Origin: a virus
Reading direction: 5' to 3' (one strand)
Length of the DNA: 20,148 nucleotides
IMG/VR virus record: IMGVR_UViG_3300034119_000848
Coordinates: 1 to 20,148 of that record
Both the position numbers and the translations under genes were made by a program. Under the pieces are notes generated by a model. The model saw only the letters and a list, made by a program, of their open reading frames with translations. It made no database searches and was not told the DNA's origin. Numbering within the stretch: position 1 is the stretch's first letter; each line of letters starts with the position of its first letter. This document shows positions 777 through 20,148 of the stretch, piece after piece.

Positions 777-1069
777 CGTCTCGTGCAAGGCTCGAACTTG
801 CGACTTATTGCTTAGCGTACCACTACAGATTTCCCTGCCAATCTTCCAATTGTTTGTGGTCTGGACCATCCCTCCATCATATCCATAAAGACTTAGATGC
901 TTCCCGTCTGGCCTCTACACCTTCAAGATTTCTCTTGCTTGGCTCGGGATTGCCATATTCATAAAGAACTTAGGTTTCCCCGAATTTGAGAAGTTACATT
1001 CATAAAATTTCTTCTATGAAGCTCCGTTTAACTTAAGGCAATTGTTCTAATCCACTGAACTAACGAGAC
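777..1069 (-). tRNA. tRNA-Arg(UCU) interrupted by a group I intron
   Basis: The exons are 1069-1035 and 815-777 on the minus strand. Joined, they give a 74-nt tRNA with a perfect cloverleaf. The acceptor is GTCTCGT/ACGAGAC and the D stem GTTC/GAAC with a GG-containing loop. The anticodon stem is ATTGC/GCAAT with loop CTTCTAA (anticodon TCT), and the T stem GCAAG/CTTGC has loop TTCGAGC. The discriminator is G. CCA is not encoded (the next bases are CTA). The intron sits after U34, the first anticodon base. UCU reads AGA/AGG codons, which are frequent in AT-rich phage genes and less so in many hosts, a usual reason for phages to carry this tRNA. Confidence 0.92.
816..1034 (-). ncRNA. Group I intron, 219 nt, no ORF
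   Basis: The intron follows a U and ends in G (816), as group I introns do. The conserved core is visible in order on the minus strand. These are the P element CGGGGAAACCU, the Q element GGCAAUCCCGAGCC pairing with it (UCGGG/CCCGA), the R element GGUGUAGAGGCCAGACGGG and an S element containing GAUGGUCC. P7 can form from GGCC with GGUC. P1 can form from the exon CUU with GAG a few bases into the intron. As I recall it, the Anabaena tRNA-Leu(UAA) intron has nearly the same P, Q and R strings and the same insertion point after U34, so subgroup IC3 is likely. It should self-splice. It is too short for a homing endonuclease ORF and contains none. Confidence 0.9.
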
Positions 1070-1178
1070 ATAAAAACCCCAAAACATAAAAACCAATAAA
1101 AACCAGTAATTCCTAAAAATTCCTAGATTTTACTTAGGTCTAAGGGGTTATTTTTGATGGACCAGCCGTGATCGGACT

Positions 1179-1376
1179 TCATAAGAGCCCGCCAGAGGAC
1201 TGATCGCTATCAGTGTTATTTAGACAAGGCCGGTGAGGTATCCCCATACGTTTCCAAAGTGTCACTGGTTCCCATTCTCCGTTTACTTTCCTTACCTTGT
1301 AAAAGGGTCTCCAATAGCTGTTCTTATCTCCCATAACAGAAGATGCAGATATCGCATCTGCAGAAGACAGTCCCAT
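1179..1376 (-). CDS. Hypothetical 65-aa protein
   Basis: The frame from ATG 1376 encodes a Ser/Ala-rich N-terminus, then a basic-aromatic stretch (YWRPFYKVRKVNGEWEPVT), and ends with a Ser/Asp tail. No family is recognised. There is no Shine-Dalgarno before ATG 1376. The same frame is open further upstream to TGA 1433-1431, and that extension (codons from CTG 1424) encodes a strongly hydrophobic stretch, LILLLWVLGGIPSG, which would make a signal or membrane segment. No ATG, GTG or TTG lies in that part, so either CTG 1424 is used (GGGGGA lies ten bases before it) or the true start has been lost. Confidence 0.4.
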   Translation of the reverse strand: MGLSSADAISASSVMGDKNSYWRPFYKVRKVNGEWEPVTLWKRMGIPHRPCLNNTDSDQSSGGLL

Positions 1377-1442
1377 AAAGGAACCGCTGGGAATTCCACC
1401 CAGAACCCATAATAAGAGGATCAGGGGTGATCAGTCCCCCGA

Positions 1443-1458
1443 CCTAAGAAAACTTAGG
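1443..1458. other. Short perfect hairpin in a gene-free stretch
   Basis: CCTAAG, four A residues and CTTAGG form a 6-bp stem. Neither strand has a T-run after it, so it is not a convincing terminator. The stretch 1377-1524 otherwise holds only possible decayed coding sequence: a minus-strand frame over about 1451-1495 reads GATYRKILEKSGLLIKS and is broken upstream by a stop. Confidence 0.35.
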
Positions 1459-1524
1459 ATTTAATCAAAAGACCGGATTTCTCCAGAATTTTGCGATATG
1501 TGGCCCCTCAACCACGACTAAAAC

Positions 1525-1572
1525 TAGATGATTTTTTTTACATTGCAAGTAATTAAATTGCTGAATCACCTA
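1525..1572 (-). ncRNA. Repeated hairpin element, copy C (after tRNA-Pro)
   Basis: The 48-nt minus-strand element starts two bases after the tRNA-Pro discriminator. The stem is UAGGUGAU (1572-1565) with AUCAUCUA (1532-1525), 8 bp including one G-U. The 5' arm is followed at once by UCAGCAAUU. Copies A (3304-3351) and B (1694-1743) have the same layout, with the inner stem pairs changed on both sides (GGG/CCC, GGU/ACC, GAU/AUC). That pattern points to selection on RNA structure. Function unknown. Confidence 0.6.
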
Positions 1573-1574
1573 AA

Positions 1575-1688
1575 TCGGGGAAGAAAGATTCAAACTTTCA
1601 CTGAACCGGCTCCCAAAGCGTATAATTGCGGTTAATATCTTAAACAAGATACCTTTTACGGCGCCTCTATCAATTGGGCTATTCCCCG
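1575..1688 (-). tRNA. tRNA-Pro(UGG) with a 39-nt insertion in the anticodon stem
   Basis: The acceptor is CGGGGAA (1688-1682) with TTCCCCG (1582-1576), perfect over 7 bp, with discriminator A 1575 and no CCA. The D arm is 1679-1663. The T arm is GAAAG/CTTTC with loop TTTGAAT. The anticodon loop TTTGGGA (1617-1611) has anticodon TGG. The 3' anticodon stem is GCCGG (1610-1606). Its partner is split: CCG at 1661-1659 and GC at 1619-1618, separated by 39 bases (1658-1620). Removing them restores CCGGC/GCCGG and a 75-nt tRNA. The usual tertiary pair G19-C56 appears replaced by A19-U56, both partners having changed. The gene may be inactive, or the insert may be removed or tolerated. Confidence 0.7.
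1620..1658 (-). other. 39-nt insertion inside tRNA-Pro
   Basis: The insert lies between stem positions 29 and 30. It contains a self-complementary segment (TATCTT with AAGATA around GTTT) and is too short for a group I intron. No target-site duplication is obvious, though CCG occurs both just before it and within it. It could be a recombination scar from another tRNA, a mini-intron of unknown type, or an expansion of the stem. Confidence 0.6.
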
Positions 1689-1749: not shown

Positions 1750-1757
1750 TATTTATC
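1750..1757 (-). promoter_or_regulatory. Late-promoter-like GATAAATA before the tRNA-Pro region
   Basis: GATAAATA differs from the late octamer at its first base. It overlaps the stop codon of the DUF2828 gene and would start transcription near 1744, at the base of hairpin copy B. Confidence 0.4.
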
Positions 1758-3223
1758 TAAGCAAAAACCTCCCCAATAGCCGCATAACGGTCACTATAAA
1801 CGGTATCGTTCATGGTGTCAACCGGAGTAACGACTTTATCAGTCATAATGGACTTAAGAATCGAAGGACTACAACCAGACACAAGACAAGTACCAGTATC
1901 GTGGATAGTCATAGGGACGTTACCACCAATTGCGTTAACATTCCAGAAAACCAGTTGTGGCATCTCATAGCCTGCCTTTCGGTAGATTTTTTCAATTTGT
2001 TCAAAGTTAGTTCTCTTATTAGAACTACATGCCTGATCAAACTGCATATCAGAAACAATAATTAGTTTCTGTGGCATATCCTCAGGTGCAACATCATTAC
2101 TCATACCTGCATCAAGAACAGTTTTAAAAACGGCCATAAGATTAGTATTCATACCCCAGGCCGCACGGGAAAGATTCTCAATACGTTTGCCAATAGTAGA
2201 ACCAACAATAGTTTGTAGTTCAGGACTTTCAGAAAAAGTCAGGAACCTATCTTTCCATACAGGAGCAGTATTTCGCTCTGCAATATACATCGCAAGGGAG
2301 ATGGAAACCGCCATAGGACGACCATACATCGAACCAGAAACGTCGGCAACTACTAGACCGTTAAATTGATTATCTTCCATATAATTAGGAAGTGCTTCCC
2401 ACTGAAGATCAATGGTCTTGTCACCGCGAGCGCCCTTATAAAGATACTGTTCAACAATATCATAAGGATACAAAGTAGAAGCATTGATTTTTGCTTCACC
2501 ATTTTCGACAGCACTCAGATATTGGGCATAACGCTCGCCATCTTGCTTCTGGAATGCCTTACGGTACATAAATGCGGCGCGAGAAGGCACCTTGGAATAG
2601 TCAATTGCAGACCATTCTTTGGAGCACATTGCTTGCTCAACAATGCGAATTTGAGTGCGGAGATTGCTTAGAACCTTACGATATTCTTTTTCGGAAAGAC
2701 CCAGATGTGATGCGATTTTACGGCCTAGGCGCTTGCTATCTTTACTGGAAGCATTGATAGATGGCAGCCACTTTGCGAGCAGAGAAACCTTACCATCAGT
2801 CTTCAGATGAAGACGGTCAAGATCAAGTTGTGCCTGAATTACATTAAGAACAGTATTCCAAGCAGGAGTATTTTCTAGAACAAGCAAGTCATCCCAACGA
2901 CCATATTCTGGAACAAGAGAAACGAGTTTCACACCAACTTCGCCATTTTCCTCAACAAGATACTTGAAAAGTTGACGGAAGATAGATCGTTCTCCCTGTC
3001 CTCCACGAATATCGCGTGCCCAGAAAAGAATACGGGTTGCAGTCTCAGGCTCTTCCTTAAAAGCAAGAGCAAAAAGTTTTTGGGCCTTATTAATGTCATT
3101 TCGACAGGCCGCGATCTGACCAAAAAGATCCACACAAGAATCAAGAGTAGACTTATAAGCCTTGGCTCCATTAAGAGTCTCGGTGGCATTCAGTTCAGAT
3201 TTAATAGCAGTAATAAAAGTCAT
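1757..3223 (-). CDS. DUF2828 protein: helical repeats plus von Willebrand A domain (Ro60-like architecture)
   Basis: The protein is 488 aa when started at ATG 3223 (MTFITAIKSELN). Longer upstream starts are possible but would add a tail lacking family character. Residues 20-280 are an all-helical region with the DUF2828 signature AYKSTLD...DLFG and RILFWARDIRGGQGER. From about residue 288 a vWA domain carries an intact metal-ion-dependent adhesion site: DVSGS (Asp294), the Thr of GMNTNL, and SDMQFD. This layout resembles Ro60/TROVE proteins, which bind Y RNAs and misfolded RNAs. RNA binding here is inference. A strong early promoter (3398-3426) and a 168-nt structured leader precede it, and copies of one RNA hairpin lie on both sides. 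No Shine-Dalgarno is obvious at ATG 3223. Confidence 0.85.
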   Translation of the reverse strand: MTFITAIKSELNATETLNGAKAYKSTLDSCVDLFGQIAACRNDINKAQKLFALAFKEEPETATRILFWARDIRGGQGERSIFRQLFKYLVEENGEVGVKLVSLVPEYGRWDDLLVLENTPAWNTVLNVIQAQLDLDRLHLKTDGKVSLLAKWLPSINASSKDSKRLGRKIASHLGLSEKEYRKVLSNLRTQIRIVEQAMCSKEWSAIDYSKVPSRAAFMYRKAFQKQDGERYAQYLSAVENGEAKINASTLYPYDIVEQYLYKGARGDKTIDLQWEALPNYMEDNQFNGLVVADVSGSMYGRPMAVSISLAMYIAERNTAPVWKDRFLTFSESPELQTIVGSTIGKRIENLSRAAWGMNTNLMAVFKTVLDAGMSNDVAPEDMPQKLIIVSDMQFDQACSSNKRTNFEQIEKIYRKAGYEMPQLVFWNVNAIGGNVPMTIHDTGTCLVSGCSPSILKSIMTDKVVTPVDTMNDTVYSDRYAAIGEVFA

Positions 3224-3391
3224 AGTTTTTACAAGTTGATTGGTAAATTGTCTTTTACCTAAGTTGTTTTGGAGACAGTTTGTATGCTGTATCAACTTTA
3301 GGCTAGATGGGTGGTTTCCGATAGTGAAGGATTTAATTGCTGTCCCATCTAAAATGGCGTCTTTTTAGGCTATGTGCCTAACGACTTCCAC
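3224..3391 (-). promoter_or_regulatory. Structured 5' leader of the DUF2828 gene
   Basis: Transcription from the promoter at 3398-3426 would start near 3391, leaving about 168 nt before the start codon. The leader holds a perfect hairpin TTAGGC/GCCTAA (3381-3365) and the 48-nt element copy A (3304-3351). GGTGG at its very 5' end could pair with CCACC next to copy A. The first hairpin has no U-run, so it does not look like an attenuator. It matches no riboswitch family that I know. Confidence 0.5.
3304..3351 (-). ncRNA. Repeated hairpin element, copy A (DUF2828 leader)
   Basis: The stem is UAGAUGGG (3351-3344) with CCCAUCUA (3311-3304), 8 bp, with ACAGCAAUU after the 5' arm. It is 48 nt, the same length as copy C. 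It shares UAGAUGG, CAGCAAUU and CAUCUAG with copy B. Confidence 0.6.
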
Positions 3392-3397
3392 CTTTTA

Positions 3398-3442
3398 AGT
3401 ATCCCACATGTTCTCTGATTTGTCAAGAGGATTGTGCCAGTT
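3398..3442 (-). promoter_or_regulatory. Early sigma70-type promoter of the DUF2828 gene
   Basis: The site reads AACTGGCACA (3442-3433), six bases, TTGACA (3426-3421), a 17-base spacer and GATACT (3403-3398). It has the best -35 in the window. The upstream block and its six-base gap are the same in the promoters at 3839-3883 and 11209-11254. Confidence 0.75.
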
Positions 3443-3475
3443 GATCAAGTGTCAAAACGTTAGATTAACTTTTAA

Positions 3476-3817: not shown

Positions 3818-3838
3818 TTTAATCTCAACAACCCTTTA

Positions 3839-3883
3839 ATTAAAGCACACCTCATCAAATCTATCAAGGAGCATGTGCCAGTT
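3839..3883 (-). promoter_or_regulatory. Early sigma70-type promoter
   Basis: The site reads AACTGGCACA (3883-3874), six bases, TTGATA (3867-3862), a 17-base spacer ending in GTGTGC, and TTTAAT (3844-3839). The GTGTGC extension also precedes the -10 at 5517-5512. The upstream block starts inside the last codons of the 3886-4128 gene region. Confidence 0.75.
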
Positions 3884-3885
3884 GA

Positions 3886-4128
3886 TCAACCGGAGATCTC
3901 TTGCATAATCTCCGAAAGTCGCATCTGCGTATCATAAGACAAAGATTCTAGTTCTTTTTTATGATCATCGACCCGCTTTAAAAACCGCCAATATTCCTCT
4001 CTCACCTGATCAAAAGTAACGGCCCGATTAAGAATCAGCCAATCATAATCATTCTGAACAACGGCAGCCGTGTCCATAATTTCAGAAGTCAGGGCCTTAA
4101 AGCGATTAAACAATTGTTCTTCGTTCAT
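3886..4128 (-). CDS. Hypothetical 80-aa protein
   Basis: The protein is mostly helical and acidic (MNEEQLFNRFKALTSEIMD at the N-terminus, KRVDDHKKELESLS near the C-terminus) and could form a coiled coil. No family is recognised. Its ATG overlaps the stop of the gene upstream (4128-4400) by one base, so it probably belongs to the same transcript as the run of small genes from 5137 down to 3886. Confidence 0.65.
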   Translation of the reverse strand: MNEEQLFNRFKALTSEIMDTAAVVQNDYDWLILNRAVTFDQVREEYWRFLKRVDDHKKELESLSYDTQMRLSEIMQEISG

Positions 4129-5386: not shown

Positions 5387-5505
5387 TTGTTTTCTCCTGT
5401 GTTTGTGTGTGTTTGGCACTAGGGCCAATCCGGTTATTAAGATTTGAACTTAAATTTTTCCTCCTCCCAAAGGAGGTGCCATACCAAGTTAGGCGATAAC
5501 CGGTT
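5387..5505 (-). promoter_or_regulatory. Structured leader with possible pseudoknot
   Basis: The leader holds three helices. CCGGTTAT, next to its 5' end, pairs with ATAACCGG farther down. CCTCC and GGAGG form a hairpin inside. TGGCAC, inside the first helix, can pair with GTGCCA beyond it, which would give a pseudoknot. The Shine-Dalgarno AGGAG follows shortly after. The layout is riboswitch-like but matches no class I know. Confidence 0.45.
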
Positions 5506-6890: not shown

Positions 6891-9230
6891 TCACTCTGCT
6901 TTAGCGAAGAAATTGTGCAAGCATTGGCTTGCATTAATTCTTACATGCTCAAGAGTATAATCAACCAAAAGTTGACCATTCTCATAAATAGTTACTAACT
7001 CGTCTTTATTCCAGGGTCTTTCTGGAACAGTCTGATATTCTCCTTGTTCATTTTTGATGAGCTGAAGTCTACCCTTTTTAGATGTTTTGCCTGGGTCGGT
7101 TACAGGGTCTTTATAAACGTCACGCCAGGTTCCGTTTACATTTACCGAACTGCACTTCATTGCGAATTTAAAATCATCACGATTTACGTGTTGAAGCAAT
7201 CCGCCACCTTGACCGAAGGCAATGTTATCCGAACTGTATCCATTTGCTTCTAGAACGTGAAGAACCCGGTCAATAGTTTCATAATTCACACCGTCCCCTT
7301 GAATGAGTCTGACGTGATTTAGAACCTTATAACCCTTAGAGTTCATAGTACTTCCAAAGTGATTATCAAGAATTTGAGCACACTTTAGATTGACTTCTAC
7401 TGGGTCCCCAGAATTACCAGAAACCGCGATTCCCCTATTCCTTTTTACTAGAACCATTCCACTAGGAACTTTAACGCAATGTATAGTTCCTTTATAATTT
7501 ACTTTAGTTTTAGTAATAGATTGCCCACCAGCATAGGGAGTATCTAATATGTGGGTAGTATAGACTGTAGAGAAATGTGGTTTTCTATTGTCCTCCGCTA
7601 CTGAAATTAAAACCCCCTTCCCAGCTGAAATAGAAATGTATTCTACTACATCCACGTTAGATTTGATAGTGGTATCATACTTAAATCTACCATCGTTTCT
7701 AATGGACGAATCCCAATGCTTCAATTCTTCGATGAATTGTTCACACCAATTGCCATCTAAATTAGAAATGTCAACCCAATCAAATGTTTTAGATACTAAA
7801 TTATCTATGGGAACTGAAATAGTTATAGTAGATTGACCTTTTCTACTAGTAAGATAATACACATTAAATTTATAATCTAGATTATTAAGTATATTAAGTA
7901 ATCTGTTGTGCTTTCGTTCCTTTTGAAAATTAAATTCTATTTTATAATTCATTGAAGATGCTTTTTTAATACATCCATCTGCTTGTAGAGCGATTAAAAA
8001 TCTCTCATGCCAAGTTAGTTGTTTTCCGGATGTCTTTGCTTTTGCTGAACGCAATTTTCTATAAGCCCAATTTCCTGGTTTATAATCTTGAGCCTCTTGT
8101 ATACGAATTTTATCATTTCGATCAATAGTTACCACCCTATGATTGGGTGTAACTAATAGATCAATTTTACCATGAAAATCACGAATTTCATACATATCCC
8201 CCTCATATTGTTCATTTACAATTTTAAGAGGTTTAACAAATTCATAAGTCATGTCATCATTAACTTGTGCAACTAGATCGTTCTCTGTTAGGTTAGAAAA
8301 ATATTTCCATCCACTAGGAGTCAAAATCTGCGTCTGATCGTCGTAGCAATCAGGCCTGACCACCAAGGTAGCCCCAGATTCAATTACTTGTTCTTTAAGT
8401 TCTTCTCCCCAAAGTTTATCGCAAGCATTGTAGATGTCATAACTATCACTTACACAAGCAATAATAGCACCCGGCCTCGCATAAAGATTCAACATATTAC
8501 GATATGCCTCTACTTCATTTTCCTTACCCCAACTCGTGATAGTACTATGTTCTGATGCTGGAATACTGTAGCCCGCCATATCTTCGTGATAAAATTCTTT
8601 ACCATAAAGAAGCGCCGCAACAGTGTCGGTGCCCTTAAAATTAACTAGGTGAGCTAGTCCACCAATTCCTGCTGATTCATAAGAACTCACTCCGCGAAAT
8701 CCAAAGTCTTGCATCTTAAAATCAATAAGATTTGGGTCTCCATTGCGGATAAGATAATTGAGAATAAGTTTCTTAGAATTATAAGAATTACTTGCAACAG
8801 TCGTTGGATACCAAATTGCGCGAAGTAGAGCAGTTTCTAGGAAACTAGTCAACCAATAGCAATTTGGGTCAGTGTTCTCAATTGTAAGTAAAACGTTCTT
8901 TACGGGGACTACAGTTCCCTCTGGAACAGCCTTGATTCTTACGGGGAGATGTCCACCGTGCTTTTTGACGATGTATTCCCAACCACCACGGTAGAATGGT
9001 TCACCGTGAGCCTGAATAATTGCCTCGGCAATATCAATATCTTCCATTCTAATTGGCTTCATCAGATAGTCTTTTAGAAACATCTGAAGACCAAAGAAGA
9101 GAGTTTCATCGTGATGACCACCACGACTTTCAATGTAAGAAAATACACCTTCCGTCTGTGGGGGATATTGATTAAACTGCGAATACTTGTAAGAATCCGA
9201 ATTGAGCAGTAAATTTTTGTTTAGGTCCAT
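6891..9230 (-). CDS. nadV: Nicotinamide phosphoribosyltransferase with in-frame intein
   Basis: NadV makes nicotinamide mononucleotide from nicotinamide and PRPP, the first step of two-step NAD+ synthesis. Family marks are SRGG (35-38), KGTDTVAALLYG (Asp202, the substrate-specificity Asp), PASEHSTITSWG (228 = catalytic His), RPD (292-294), IQGDGVNYETI, AFGQGGGLLQ and KDPVTDPGKTSKKGRL. Residues 295-606 are an intein inserted between RPD and SGDP, so the spliced enzyme is 467 aa, the normal family length. The start ATG 9230 has AAGGAG nine bases upstream. The gene follows nadM, the macro domain gene and a small ORF on the same strand. A terminator hairpin lies right after its stop. Confidence 0.95.
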   Translation of the reverse strand: MDLNKNLLLNSDSYKYSQFNQYPPQTEGVFSYIESRGGHHDETLFFGLQMFLKDYLMKPIRMEDIDIAEAIIQAHGEPFYRGGWEYIVKKHGGHLPVRIKAVPEGTVVPVKNVLLTIENTDPNCYWLTSFLETALLRAIWYPTTVASNSYNSKKLILNYLIRNGDPNLIDFKMQDFGFRGVSSYESAGIGGLAHLVNFKGTDTVAALLYGKEFYHEDMAGYSIPASEHSTITSWGKENEVEAYRNMLNLYARPGAIIACVSDSYDIYNACDKLWGEELKEQVIESGATLVVRPDCYDDQTQILTPSGWKYFSNLTENDLVAQVNDDMTYEFVKPLKIVNEQYEGDMYEIRDFHGKIDLLVTPNHRVVTIDRNDKIRIQEAQDYKPGNWAYRKLRSAKAKTSGKQLTWHERFLIALQADGCIKKASSMNYKIEFNFQKERKHNRLLNILNNLDYKFNVYYLTSRKGQSTITISVPIDNLVSKTFDWVDISNLDGNWCEQFIEELKHWDSSIRNDGRFKYDTTIKSNVDVVEYISISAGKGVLISVAEDNRKPHFSTVYTTHILDTPYAGGQSITKTKVNYKGTIHCVKVPSGMVLVKRNRGIAVSGNSGDPVEVNLKCAQILDNHFGSTMNSKGYKVLNHVRLIQGDGVNYETIDRVLHVLEANGYSSDNIAFGQGGGLLQHVNRDDFKFAMKCSSVNVNGTWRDVYKDPVTDPGKTSKKGRLQLIKNEQGEYQTVPERPWNKDELVTIYENGQLLVDYTLEHVRINASQCLHNFFAKAE
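7413..8348 (-). mobile_element. Intein in NadV, 312 aa, with LAGLIDADG-like endonuclease
   Basis: The intein runs from Cys295 (block A CYDDQTQILTPSGWKYFSNL) to Asn606, with Ser607 as the +1 residue. Block B is LLVTPNHRVVT. Blocks F/G are HCVKVPSGMVLVKRNRGIAVSGN. The penultimate residue is Gly rather than His, as in some other phage inteins. Two degenerate LAGLIDADG helices are visible, HERFLIALQADGC (408-420) and CEQFIEELKHWDSS (496-509), so a homing endonuclease is or was present. The insertion point is inside the phosphate-binding active site, so NadV should be inactive until splicing. Confidence 0.92.
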
Positions 9231-18789: not shown

Positions 18790-20148
18790 TTAAACGTTAC
18801 ATGCGATACATTCTTCTTCTGATGATAAGATTTCGGAAATTAAATCATTATTTTTAATTTCTTCGGCAGAAACATCATCAGTTTTGCCGTCATATGTGTT
18901 ATGATAATATGCAGTCTTTGCACCATATTTGTATAGTGAAAGAACGTCATTGACTATAACACTGATTGGCACTTCATTATTTGGATAATTCTGGGGATTA
19001 TAGCTACCATTTACACTAATTCCCTGGTCAAAGAACTTTTGCATAACAGAAACACAATTAATATATCCTTCATTTGAAGGCATTTCCCAGAGAAGTGTAT
19101 AATTGTTTTTTAGTTTATTATACTGAGGTACAATTTGTTTGAGAGTTCCCTTCTTAGATTGTTTAATGGAAAGATAATCCCTAGGTGGTTCTACCCCATT
19201 TGTTGCATTACACGAAACAGACGAACTCTCCGTTGGGGGTTGAGCCGAGAGTGTAGTATGGCGAAGACCATGTTCTAAAATATCCTGACGAAGTTGTTCC
19301 CAGTCATGAGTGTATTCTACATTACAAATTTCATCAACTTCTTTCTTATAAGTATCAATTGGGAGAATACCATCAGAATACTTAGTGTGTCTAAAGTTGT
19401 CGCACGCCCCCTTTTCTTTTGATAGATTATTGGATGATTTTAGAAGATAATACTGGAAACTCTCGGTTAGTTTATGAACAGCTTCCCATGCACCAGGATC
19501 AGAATATTTAAACCCTAGTTTAGCAAGATAATGAGCTAGGCCAATATAACCAATACCCAGAGAACGACTAGCCTTGGTTGTTAGTTCGGCAGCCTTAACA
19601 GGATATTGTTGGTGATCAATTAGTTCATCTAAAAATCTAACAGAAAGATCACAATATTCCTCAAGTTCTTTATCAGACTTAATTGTACCTACATTAACAC
19701 AAGAGAGAATACACAGAGCAATAGAGCCGTTTACATCATCAATATGTTGAATGGGAGTAGTTTTGAGTAGAATCTCCATGCAATTAGAAACAAGAACCCC
19801 ATTTGCAAAGAAATTATGAGTTCCTTCTACAGTAATATCATAAACAGGAATTTCTTCCTCAAGATATTCGGTTGAAACAACTTTTAGAGATTCATTCAAT
19901 TTTGGTGAAACTAATTCATCATAAGCAGTCAGATCCTTGGCCATAACATAGCTTCGATTTTTGGTATAAACCTTATGATCTGGGGTAACAACGATTTCGA
20001 CATTATTACTGAGCCTAAGTTTCATTACCTGGGCTTTTGGTAAAGTTTCGGCAAATGCAGTAATAGATTGGGTTACATTCGTTCTAGTATTAAGGTCGTA
20101 AGAAAGAACTCTCAGATTCCCATACTCTGGATTGTTAATAAAATCATT
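18790..20148 (-). CDS. nrdA: Ribonucleotide reductase class Ia, alpha subunit, C-terminal part with intein end (5' end outside the window)
   Basis: The frame is open from the right edge. Up to Asn at 19785-19783 it is the C-terminal part of an intein. The catalytic extein then resumes with CMEILLKTTPIQHI. It continues with LCILSCVNVG, SLGIGYIGLAHYLAKLGF, GILPI(D)TYKKEVDEI, TLSAQPPTESSSVSCNATNGVEPPR and QKFFDQGISVNGSYNP, ending EEECIACNV with the usual C-terminal Cys pair CIAC. The extein aligns with E. coli NrdA from Cys462 onward. The enzyme reduces NDPs to dNDPs together with NrdB, whose gene follows at once. Confidence 0.95.
   Translation of the reverse strand, partial: NDFINNPEYGNLRVLSYDLNTRTNVTQSITAFAETLPKAQVMKLRLSNNVEIVVTPDHKVYTKNRSYVMAKDLTAYDELVSPKLNESLKVVSTEYLEEEIPVYDITVEGTHNFFANGVLVSNCMEILLKTTPIQHIDDVNGSIALCILSCVNVGTIKSDKELEEYCDLSVRFLDELIDHQQYPVKAAELTTKASRSLGIGYIGLAHYLAKLGFKYSDPGAWEAVHKLTESFQYYLLKSSNNLSKEKGACDNFRHTKYSDGILPIDTYKKEVDEICNVEYTHDWEQLRQDILEHGLRHTTLSAQPPTESSSVSCNATNGVEPPRDYLSIKQSKKGTLKQIVPQYNKLKNNYTLLWEMPSNEGYINCVSVMQKFFDQGISVNGSYNPQNYPNNEVPISVIVNDVLSLYKYGAKTAYYHNTYDGKTDDVSAEEIKNNDLISEILSSEEECIACNV
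19783..20148 (-). mobile_element. C-terminal part of an intein in NrdA
   Basis: Block B is EIVVTPDHKVYT and blocks F/G are VYDITVEGTHNFFANGVLVSN, followed by Cys as the +1 residue. Only about 40 residues lie between blocks B and F, with no LAGLIDADG helix, so this looks like a mini-intein without endonuclease. The first residue and block A lie outside the window. The penultimate residue is Ser, not His. The +1 Cys is the one equivalent to redox-active Cys462 of E. coli NrdA. Confidence 0.92.

Follow-up and report, generated by a model that had tools for sequence, protein, structure and literature searches.

Conserved hairpins and an interrupted tRNA-like RNA as probable Y RNA partners of a phage Ro60-fold protein in the DUF2828 branch

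Ro60 is a major human (lupus) autoantigen that has relatives in bacteria and viruses. The question of what such relatives do arises in a 20-kb fragment of a cyanobacterial virus, IMG/VR virus record IMGVR_UViG_3300034119_000848 (positions 1 to 20,148, analyzed as a whole and referred to here as the window); among annotated relatives, the nearest at the protein level is Synechococcus phage B23 (Kyanoviridae, 74% identity). On its minus strand, at 1757–3223, the window carries a Ro60-like protein gene (DUF2828 plus DUF7788/vWA, PHROG 850; 488 aa, from an ATG at 3223 to the stop codon at 1757), accompanied by repeated small hairpins and by a tRNA-like RNA: which RNAs does such a protein bind, and what might they do for it? 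We think it probable that the gene encodes a Ro60-fold RNA-binding protein and that the hairpins and the interrupted tRNA are its RNA partners, the phage Y RNAs of a DUF2828-type Ro.

Proteins of this family are already on record as Ro-like from many phages; what is new here is the RNAs. The product of 1757–3223 matches Pfam DUF7788 as well as DUF2828, the family to which the original prediction assigned it, and it matches the PHROG 850 profile ("RNA-binding protein") with E = 7e-151; 682 phage records hold relatives, many of them annotated "Ro-like RNA binding protein." A longer, TTG-started open reading frame (ORF) at 1757–3295 was rejected as the gene, its extension being leader read through. 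The original prediction had further proposed a Ro60 plan of helical repeats plus a vWA domain, to be checked by structure prediction and comparison with Ro60 and given up if that plan was lacking. The AlphaFold model from 39 sequences has a predicted local distance difference test score (pLDDT) of 91.5 and a predicted template-modeling (TM) score of 0.92, and replaces an earlier, mediocre model from 17 close sequences (pLDDT 73). Foldseek comparison with the PDB returned only three matches at E < 0.001, all of them Ro60/TROVE: human Ro60 (9nf8; E = 1.1e-6, TM 0.54), a TROVE domain (9kop; E = 2.7e-6, TM 0.52) and the Ro60 of Thermus phage phiLo (9l5y; E = 3.1e-5, TM 0.41). The alignments span the whole length at 11–16% identity, and the Ro60 plan is thus present; the vWA metal site, predicted to be intact, is invariant across 39 aligned proteins (DxSxS at D294/S296/S298, with T360 and D392). 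The phiLo Ro60 and the 9kop TROVE domain have this fold in common with the window protein, which has no TROVE Pfam match. By its modeled structure, then, the window protein is a Ro60 fold, but a member of the DUF2828 branch.

Four hairpins on the minus strand bear a common motif. Hairpin A (3303–3351; TAGATGGG-a-CAGCAA...-CCCATCTA-G) and hairpin B (3232–3298; AAGTTGAT-a-CAGCA...-ATCAACTT-G), which ends 8 nucleotides (nt) before the start codon, lie in the leader of the gene; hairpin C (1693–1743; TAGATGGT-t-CAGCAATT...-ACCATCTA-G) lies just downstream of the gene and, together with hairpin D (1524–1572; TAGGTGAT-t-CAGCAATT...-ATCATCTA-G), flanks the tRNA-Pro-like RNA at 1576–1688. A covariance model finds A, B and C, all training members, at E = 1.7e-8, 8.7e-6 and 2.6e-10, respectively, and finds D, which was outside the training set, at E = 9.5e-10. 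The repeated hairpins noticed in the original prediction are therefore real, but their number was understated and the leader holds two rather than one. The motif, 5'-WAGRT-NNN-N-CAGCAAY...A-rich...NNN-AYCTW-G-3', is common to hairpins A–D and to about 100 copies in related contigs, and it is laid out as an internal loop, with a stem strand, 1–4 nt and CAGCAA on the 5' side and an A-rich stretch, a stem strand and G on the 3' side. When only the 5' half was used to predict the pairing strand, a perfect 8-base-pair downstream partner was found in 92 of 105 instances; swapped partners gave 9% and shuffled ones 4%. The stem covaries in 48 sequences: 98.7% of cells are paired (26–46% for slid partners), and 76 cells carry double changes, compared with 22 ± 3 in shuffles, with zero one-sided changes. 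No T-run follows the hairpins.

The RNA between hairpins C and D is a 113-nt tRNA-Pro(UGG)-like RNA (1576–1688, minus strand) in which the acceptor, D and T arms are intact and a 39-nt insert (1620–1658, minus strand) breaks the anticodon stem between tRNA positions 29 and 30. It reads CGGGGAA-TA-D arm-G-CCG, then the 39 nt, then GC-TTTGGGA-GCCGG-var-T arm-TTCCCCG, and the insert consists of the hairpin TATCTT-GTTT-AAGATA followed by TTAA-CCGCAATT. Relatives carry one to five such RNAs of 109–121 nt directly downstream of the Ro-like gene, with acceptor, D and T arms and with inserts of 38–51 nt in the anticodon arm. In these RNAs the insert comprises a covarying hairpin (NNATCTWG-TT-WAGATNN) and, after it, N3-4 and C(A/C)GCAATT; the hairpin has at least 6 base pairs in 93% of 28 nonredundant RNAs (null 11%). 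Searches of Rfam gave no real match beyond tRNA, tmRNA and group I intron. The protein family is common to the window and the PHROG 850 phage records, in which the protein is annotated whereas the hairpins and tRNA-like RNAs are unannotated in the regions opened, except that the B23 counterpart of RNA 1576–1688 is labeled "tRNA-Undet." The gene had been described as lying near tRNAs, and this holds: ARAGORN finds one tRNA in the window, tRNA-Pro at 5429–5503, and misses a tRNA-Arg(UCU) gene (777–1069, minus strand) that bears a group I intron of ~219 nt (816–1034; RF00028, E = 2.7e-11) between anticodon positions 34 and 35, so that two interrupted tRNAs, the Pro-like and the Arg, flank the Ro-like gene.

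Could the 38–51-nt inserts instead be new short tRNA introns, spliced out to give working tRNAs with the help of the Ro-like protein or an RNA ligase? Removal of the insert restores a perfect anticodon stem in 30 of 52 RNAs, against 2.9 expected from a shuffled null (12 of the 28 nonredundant RNAs), and 17 of the 30 then have a canonical anticodon loop (null 0.5); the window RNA minus its insert is a tRNA-Pro(UGG) with C1-G72 and A73. (An excision test by ARAGORN only was set aside as uninformative, since it accepts many arbitrary cuts, and the shuffled null was used instead.) However, the anticodon stem would pair across the insert without excision too, many copies have noncanonical loops, such as the ATTGTCA kept across genomes, or loops of 8 nt, and no ribozyme family matches the insert. 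The module also forms stand-alone hairpins and surrounds permuted tRNAs, contexts in which excision would be pointless, and because of this recurrence we read the inserts as a Ro module and consider introns unlikely. A combined reading, in which the RNA would be both tRNA precursor and Y RNA and Ro-dependent cutting and joining of the insert would release a working phage tRNA, appears unlikely as well; if true, it would couple the Ro60 ribonucleoprotein to tRNA maturation or repair, and we know of no such class of tRNA intron from bacteria.

The relationship between the putative Y RNA forms is best seen in the order of their helix strands. In the hairpins the order is 5'-WAGAT..CAGCAA...A-rich..ATCTWG-3', and in the tRNA insert it is 5'-A-rich..ATCTWG-TT-WAGAT..CAGCAATT-3'; read from sequence, the two forms are a circular permutation of one internal-loop motif, as would be expected for a protein-binding site. 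In Enterococcus phage Bop, Mycobacterium phage LeBron, Felix-like phage finno and Bacillus phage BcoS-136 the hairpin encloses a permuted tRNA in the order T arm, acceptor 3' strand, short loop, acceptor 5' strand, D arm. An Aeromonas phage, in which the CCA end is encoded, has the interrupted-tRNA form too, as do 14 of 80 bacterial loci. BcoS-136 (L212, 1940–2063) also has a CAGCAA hairpin enclosing a tRNA-like stretch in normal, not permuted, order.

These arrangements invite comparison with the bacterial Y RNA YrlA, whose 5' and 3' ends form a large stem that is joined to D, T and acceptor arms (PMC8394870). Like YrlA of the Rsr/Ro60 RYPER system, the window RNAs adjoin the gene of a Ro-fold protein and have a conserved, covarying stem of protein-binding type; RNA 1576–1688 combines a long stem with a tRNA-like domain of D, T and acceptor arms, whereas hairpins A–D have no tRNA-like domain. 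A stem made from the RNA ends would fit hairpins A–D if they are processed at their bases, whereas that of RNA 1576–1688 is internal. The enclosed permuted-tRNA forms of other phages match the published YrlA arrangement, and RNA 1576–1688 has the reverse permutation, with its ends at the acceptor and a capped, presumed Ro-binding arm set into the anticodon stem. The window RNAs further differ from YrlA in their motif, CAGCAA, and in having copies in the Ro mRNA leader.

In a held-out covariance-model search of 567 kb of whole or large genomes, all hits with E < 1e-4 fall at the Ro locus. In eight whole or large phage genomes, 30 CAGCAA hairpins lie within 3 kb of Ro, a zone that makes up 5% of the sequence. 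The 59 found elsewhere occur at roughly the background rate, and seven permuted motifs give 0–5 near Ro. The hairpins adjoin a Ro-like gene in Mycobacterium, Bacillus, Listeria, Enterococcus, Felix-like, Campylobacter, Aeromonas, Staphylococcus and Leptolyngbya phages. Conversely, the ~13 followed-up contigs with interrupted tRNAs, found by DNA pattern alone, contain a Ro gene except where they are short fragments; IMG/VR matches of the exact insert pattern in unrelated coding sequence were dismissed as having no tRNA context. The exact cyanophage insert was not found in a scan of bacterial genomes; the looser motif was found by a protein-based scan, which gave 75 bacterial loci encoding relatives, mostly in Bacillota, for comparison with 124 control windows. 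There CAGCAA is the top upstream hexamer among de novo k-mers (71/75 loci against 31/124 controls), with ACAGCAA, the T-arm string GGTTCGA (53/75 against 11/124) and the closing strand GTGCCTTG close behind; the hairpins, scored in Bacillota by script and not by covariance model, number 125 at these loci and 5 in controls. In our judgment, the covariation of the stem, its locus specificity and its conservation in both phages and bacteria, as read from sequence, lend strong support to the tie that the original prediction drew between the protein and tRNA-like Y RNAs and hairpins. In another contig, L150 (= G012), seven tandem CAGCAA hairpins, none of them inside a tRNA, occupy the leader of a more distant Ro-like gene (1031–1575, minus strand; 56% identity).

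The same distribution bears on a rival view, in which the interrupted tRNAs would be in decay or would serve as decoys, such as bait for anticodon nucleases, and the hairpins would be tRNA-processing or termination signals unrelated to Ro. Phages do face tRNA nucleases, and the interrupted tRNAs do sit among tRNA genes; yet the RNAs are confined genome-wide to the Ro locus and occur also at bacterial and phage Ro loci that have no tRNA arrays, the acceptor, D and T arms are preserved along with the motif, covariation is perfect, and the hairpins lack a following T-run. We regard this explanation as very unlikely.

Turning to the leader, an early promoter followed by a long structured leader had been predicted, and a promoter and such a leader are found. 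A sigma-70-type promoter, TTGACA-17-GATACT with TG preceding the -10 box (3398–3426, minus strand), stands before a leader of ~168 nt that folds better than shuffled sequences (z = -2.6) and comprises a predicted 5' hairpin (3354–3391, minus strand; GTC..TTAGGC/GCCTAA..GAC) and hairpins A and B; the stem of the 5' hairpin varies in relatives L002, L012 and L027 (TAGGT/ACCTA, CCGGC/GCCGG). In total the promoter scan gave 19 against 13.5 ± 4.1 by chance, i.e., not above chance. TTGACA and a -10-like box at the expected spacing precede the leader in L002, L011, L013, L015, L016, L017, L025 and L120, and tRNAs precede it instead in L004–L008; the promoter is missing in relatives whose tRNA genes abut the leader and present in several without them. 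Two 59-nt stretches of the window (3390–3448 and 3831–3889), 71% alike, each lie upstream of genes and end in GTGCCAGTTGATCAA, and a similar string, CTGGCACAA, precedes promoters in relatives, possibly as a repeated promoter element. A candidate phage tmRNA (tag ANKIVAFSRQTALV) closely precedes the Ro-like leader in relatives L016 (4511–4804), L017 and L020.

In each of the 15 sequences measured, among them the window, hairpin B ends 6–11 nt ahead of the start codon, and its closing G usually doubles as the first G of a GGAG or GAGG ribosome-binding site; a clear GGAG after hairpin B was not seen in the window, L002, L012 or B23. The regular expression that defined this set missed four further leaders, all of which share the ending ...AACTTGGAG. 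Because hairpin B touches the ribosome-binding site, feedback is likely; the support for the autoregulation suggested in the original prediction is this position of hairpin B. That the leader hairpins form a metabolite riboswitch or another protein's site, as a structured leader with internal loops might suggest, is highly improbable, given that no Rfam family matches at E ≤ 5 except by chance and that the leader is not the only place with these motifs, which recur identically in tRNAs and downstream of the gene.

Starting from the fold, the motif with its covariation, locus specificity and conservation, and the position at the start codon established above, we propose that each partner RNA carries one recognition motif, with a helix, 1–4 nt and CAGCAAU on the 5' side and an A-rich stretch, the pairing strand and G on the 3' side, and that the Ro-like protein probably binds the RNAs that bear it. 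Four copies would be displayed as short hairpins and the fifth turned inside out in the tRNA anticodon stem, its helix capped by a small loop. The latter would be a tRNA-topology Y RNA, in which a Ro-binding arm joins the acceptor, D and T arms, and could hold Ro by the anticodon-side arm while offering its tRNA body to tRNA enzymes, nucleases or RNA-repair enzymes; the array may be processed into separate RNAs, and the ribonucleoprotein may serve the phage in RNA quality control, RNA decay or tRNA repair. Hairpins A and B would be transcribed as the Ro mRNA leader, with B ending where the ribosome-binding site begins, and free Ro protein would bind hairpin B and block translation until Y RNA suffices. 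Such control would resemble that of ribosomal-protein leaders, in which the protein's RNA site is repeated in its own leader beside the ribosome-binding site, with the differences that this protein is not ribosomal and that its regulation is predicted only.

Several observations weigh against the proposal that these are the Y RNAs of a Ro60-fold protein. The whole-chain TM scores to Ro60 are moderate (0.41–0.54), and the TROVE sequence profile (PF05731) matches nothing in the window, with no sequence-level TROVE link found. A PDB sequence search with the window protein likewise gave no match, and the Ro60 link therefore rests on structure and existing phage annotation. In LeBron and Felix-like phages the hairpins lie downstream of the gene, and leader autoregulation therefore cannot be general. 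In Listeria phage CKA15, abundant RNAs near the Ro-like gene have been proposed as Y RNAs, and the Ro-like protein CKA15_055 was found in purified phage particles (PMC12282133). The portion of that report considered here defines no motif or structure for them; in the related Listeria phage A511, the leader of the Ro-like gene contains three CAGCAA hairpins. By coordinates, however, the most abundant RNA region of CKA15 given there (26,236–26,727) corresponds to an A511 stretch without CAGCAA hairpins, and the CKA15 data thus give no evidence that the hairpins as such are abundant.

A motif kept from cyanophages to Bacillota makes the RNA partners of the DUF2828 branch predictable and testable, and the leader copies offer a direct reporter assay for binding. 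These putative Y RNAs appear in two circular permutations, enclosing a permuted tRNA, as in YrlA, or inserted into a tRNA; the inserted form hides among phage tRNA genes, where it escapes or confuses tRNA finders. We believe the tRNA-topology form and the leader copies to be new. In 2014, Chen et al. reportedly found probable Y RNAs close to Ro60 in numerous bacteria and phages, and the CAGCAA motif itself may therefore already be described there.

Elsewhere in the window, a minus-strand ORF at 6891–9230 encodes a nicotinamide phosphoribosyltransferase with ~300 extra residues in its middle, probably an intein, flanked by NAMPT_N and NAPRTase matches; macro-domain and NMN adenylyltransferase-NUDIX genes adjoin it, forming an NAD-salvage cluster. 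A further minus-strand ORF at 18790–20025, for a ribonucleotide reductase large subunit, starts inside an apparent C-terminal intein end and is followed by the small subunit.
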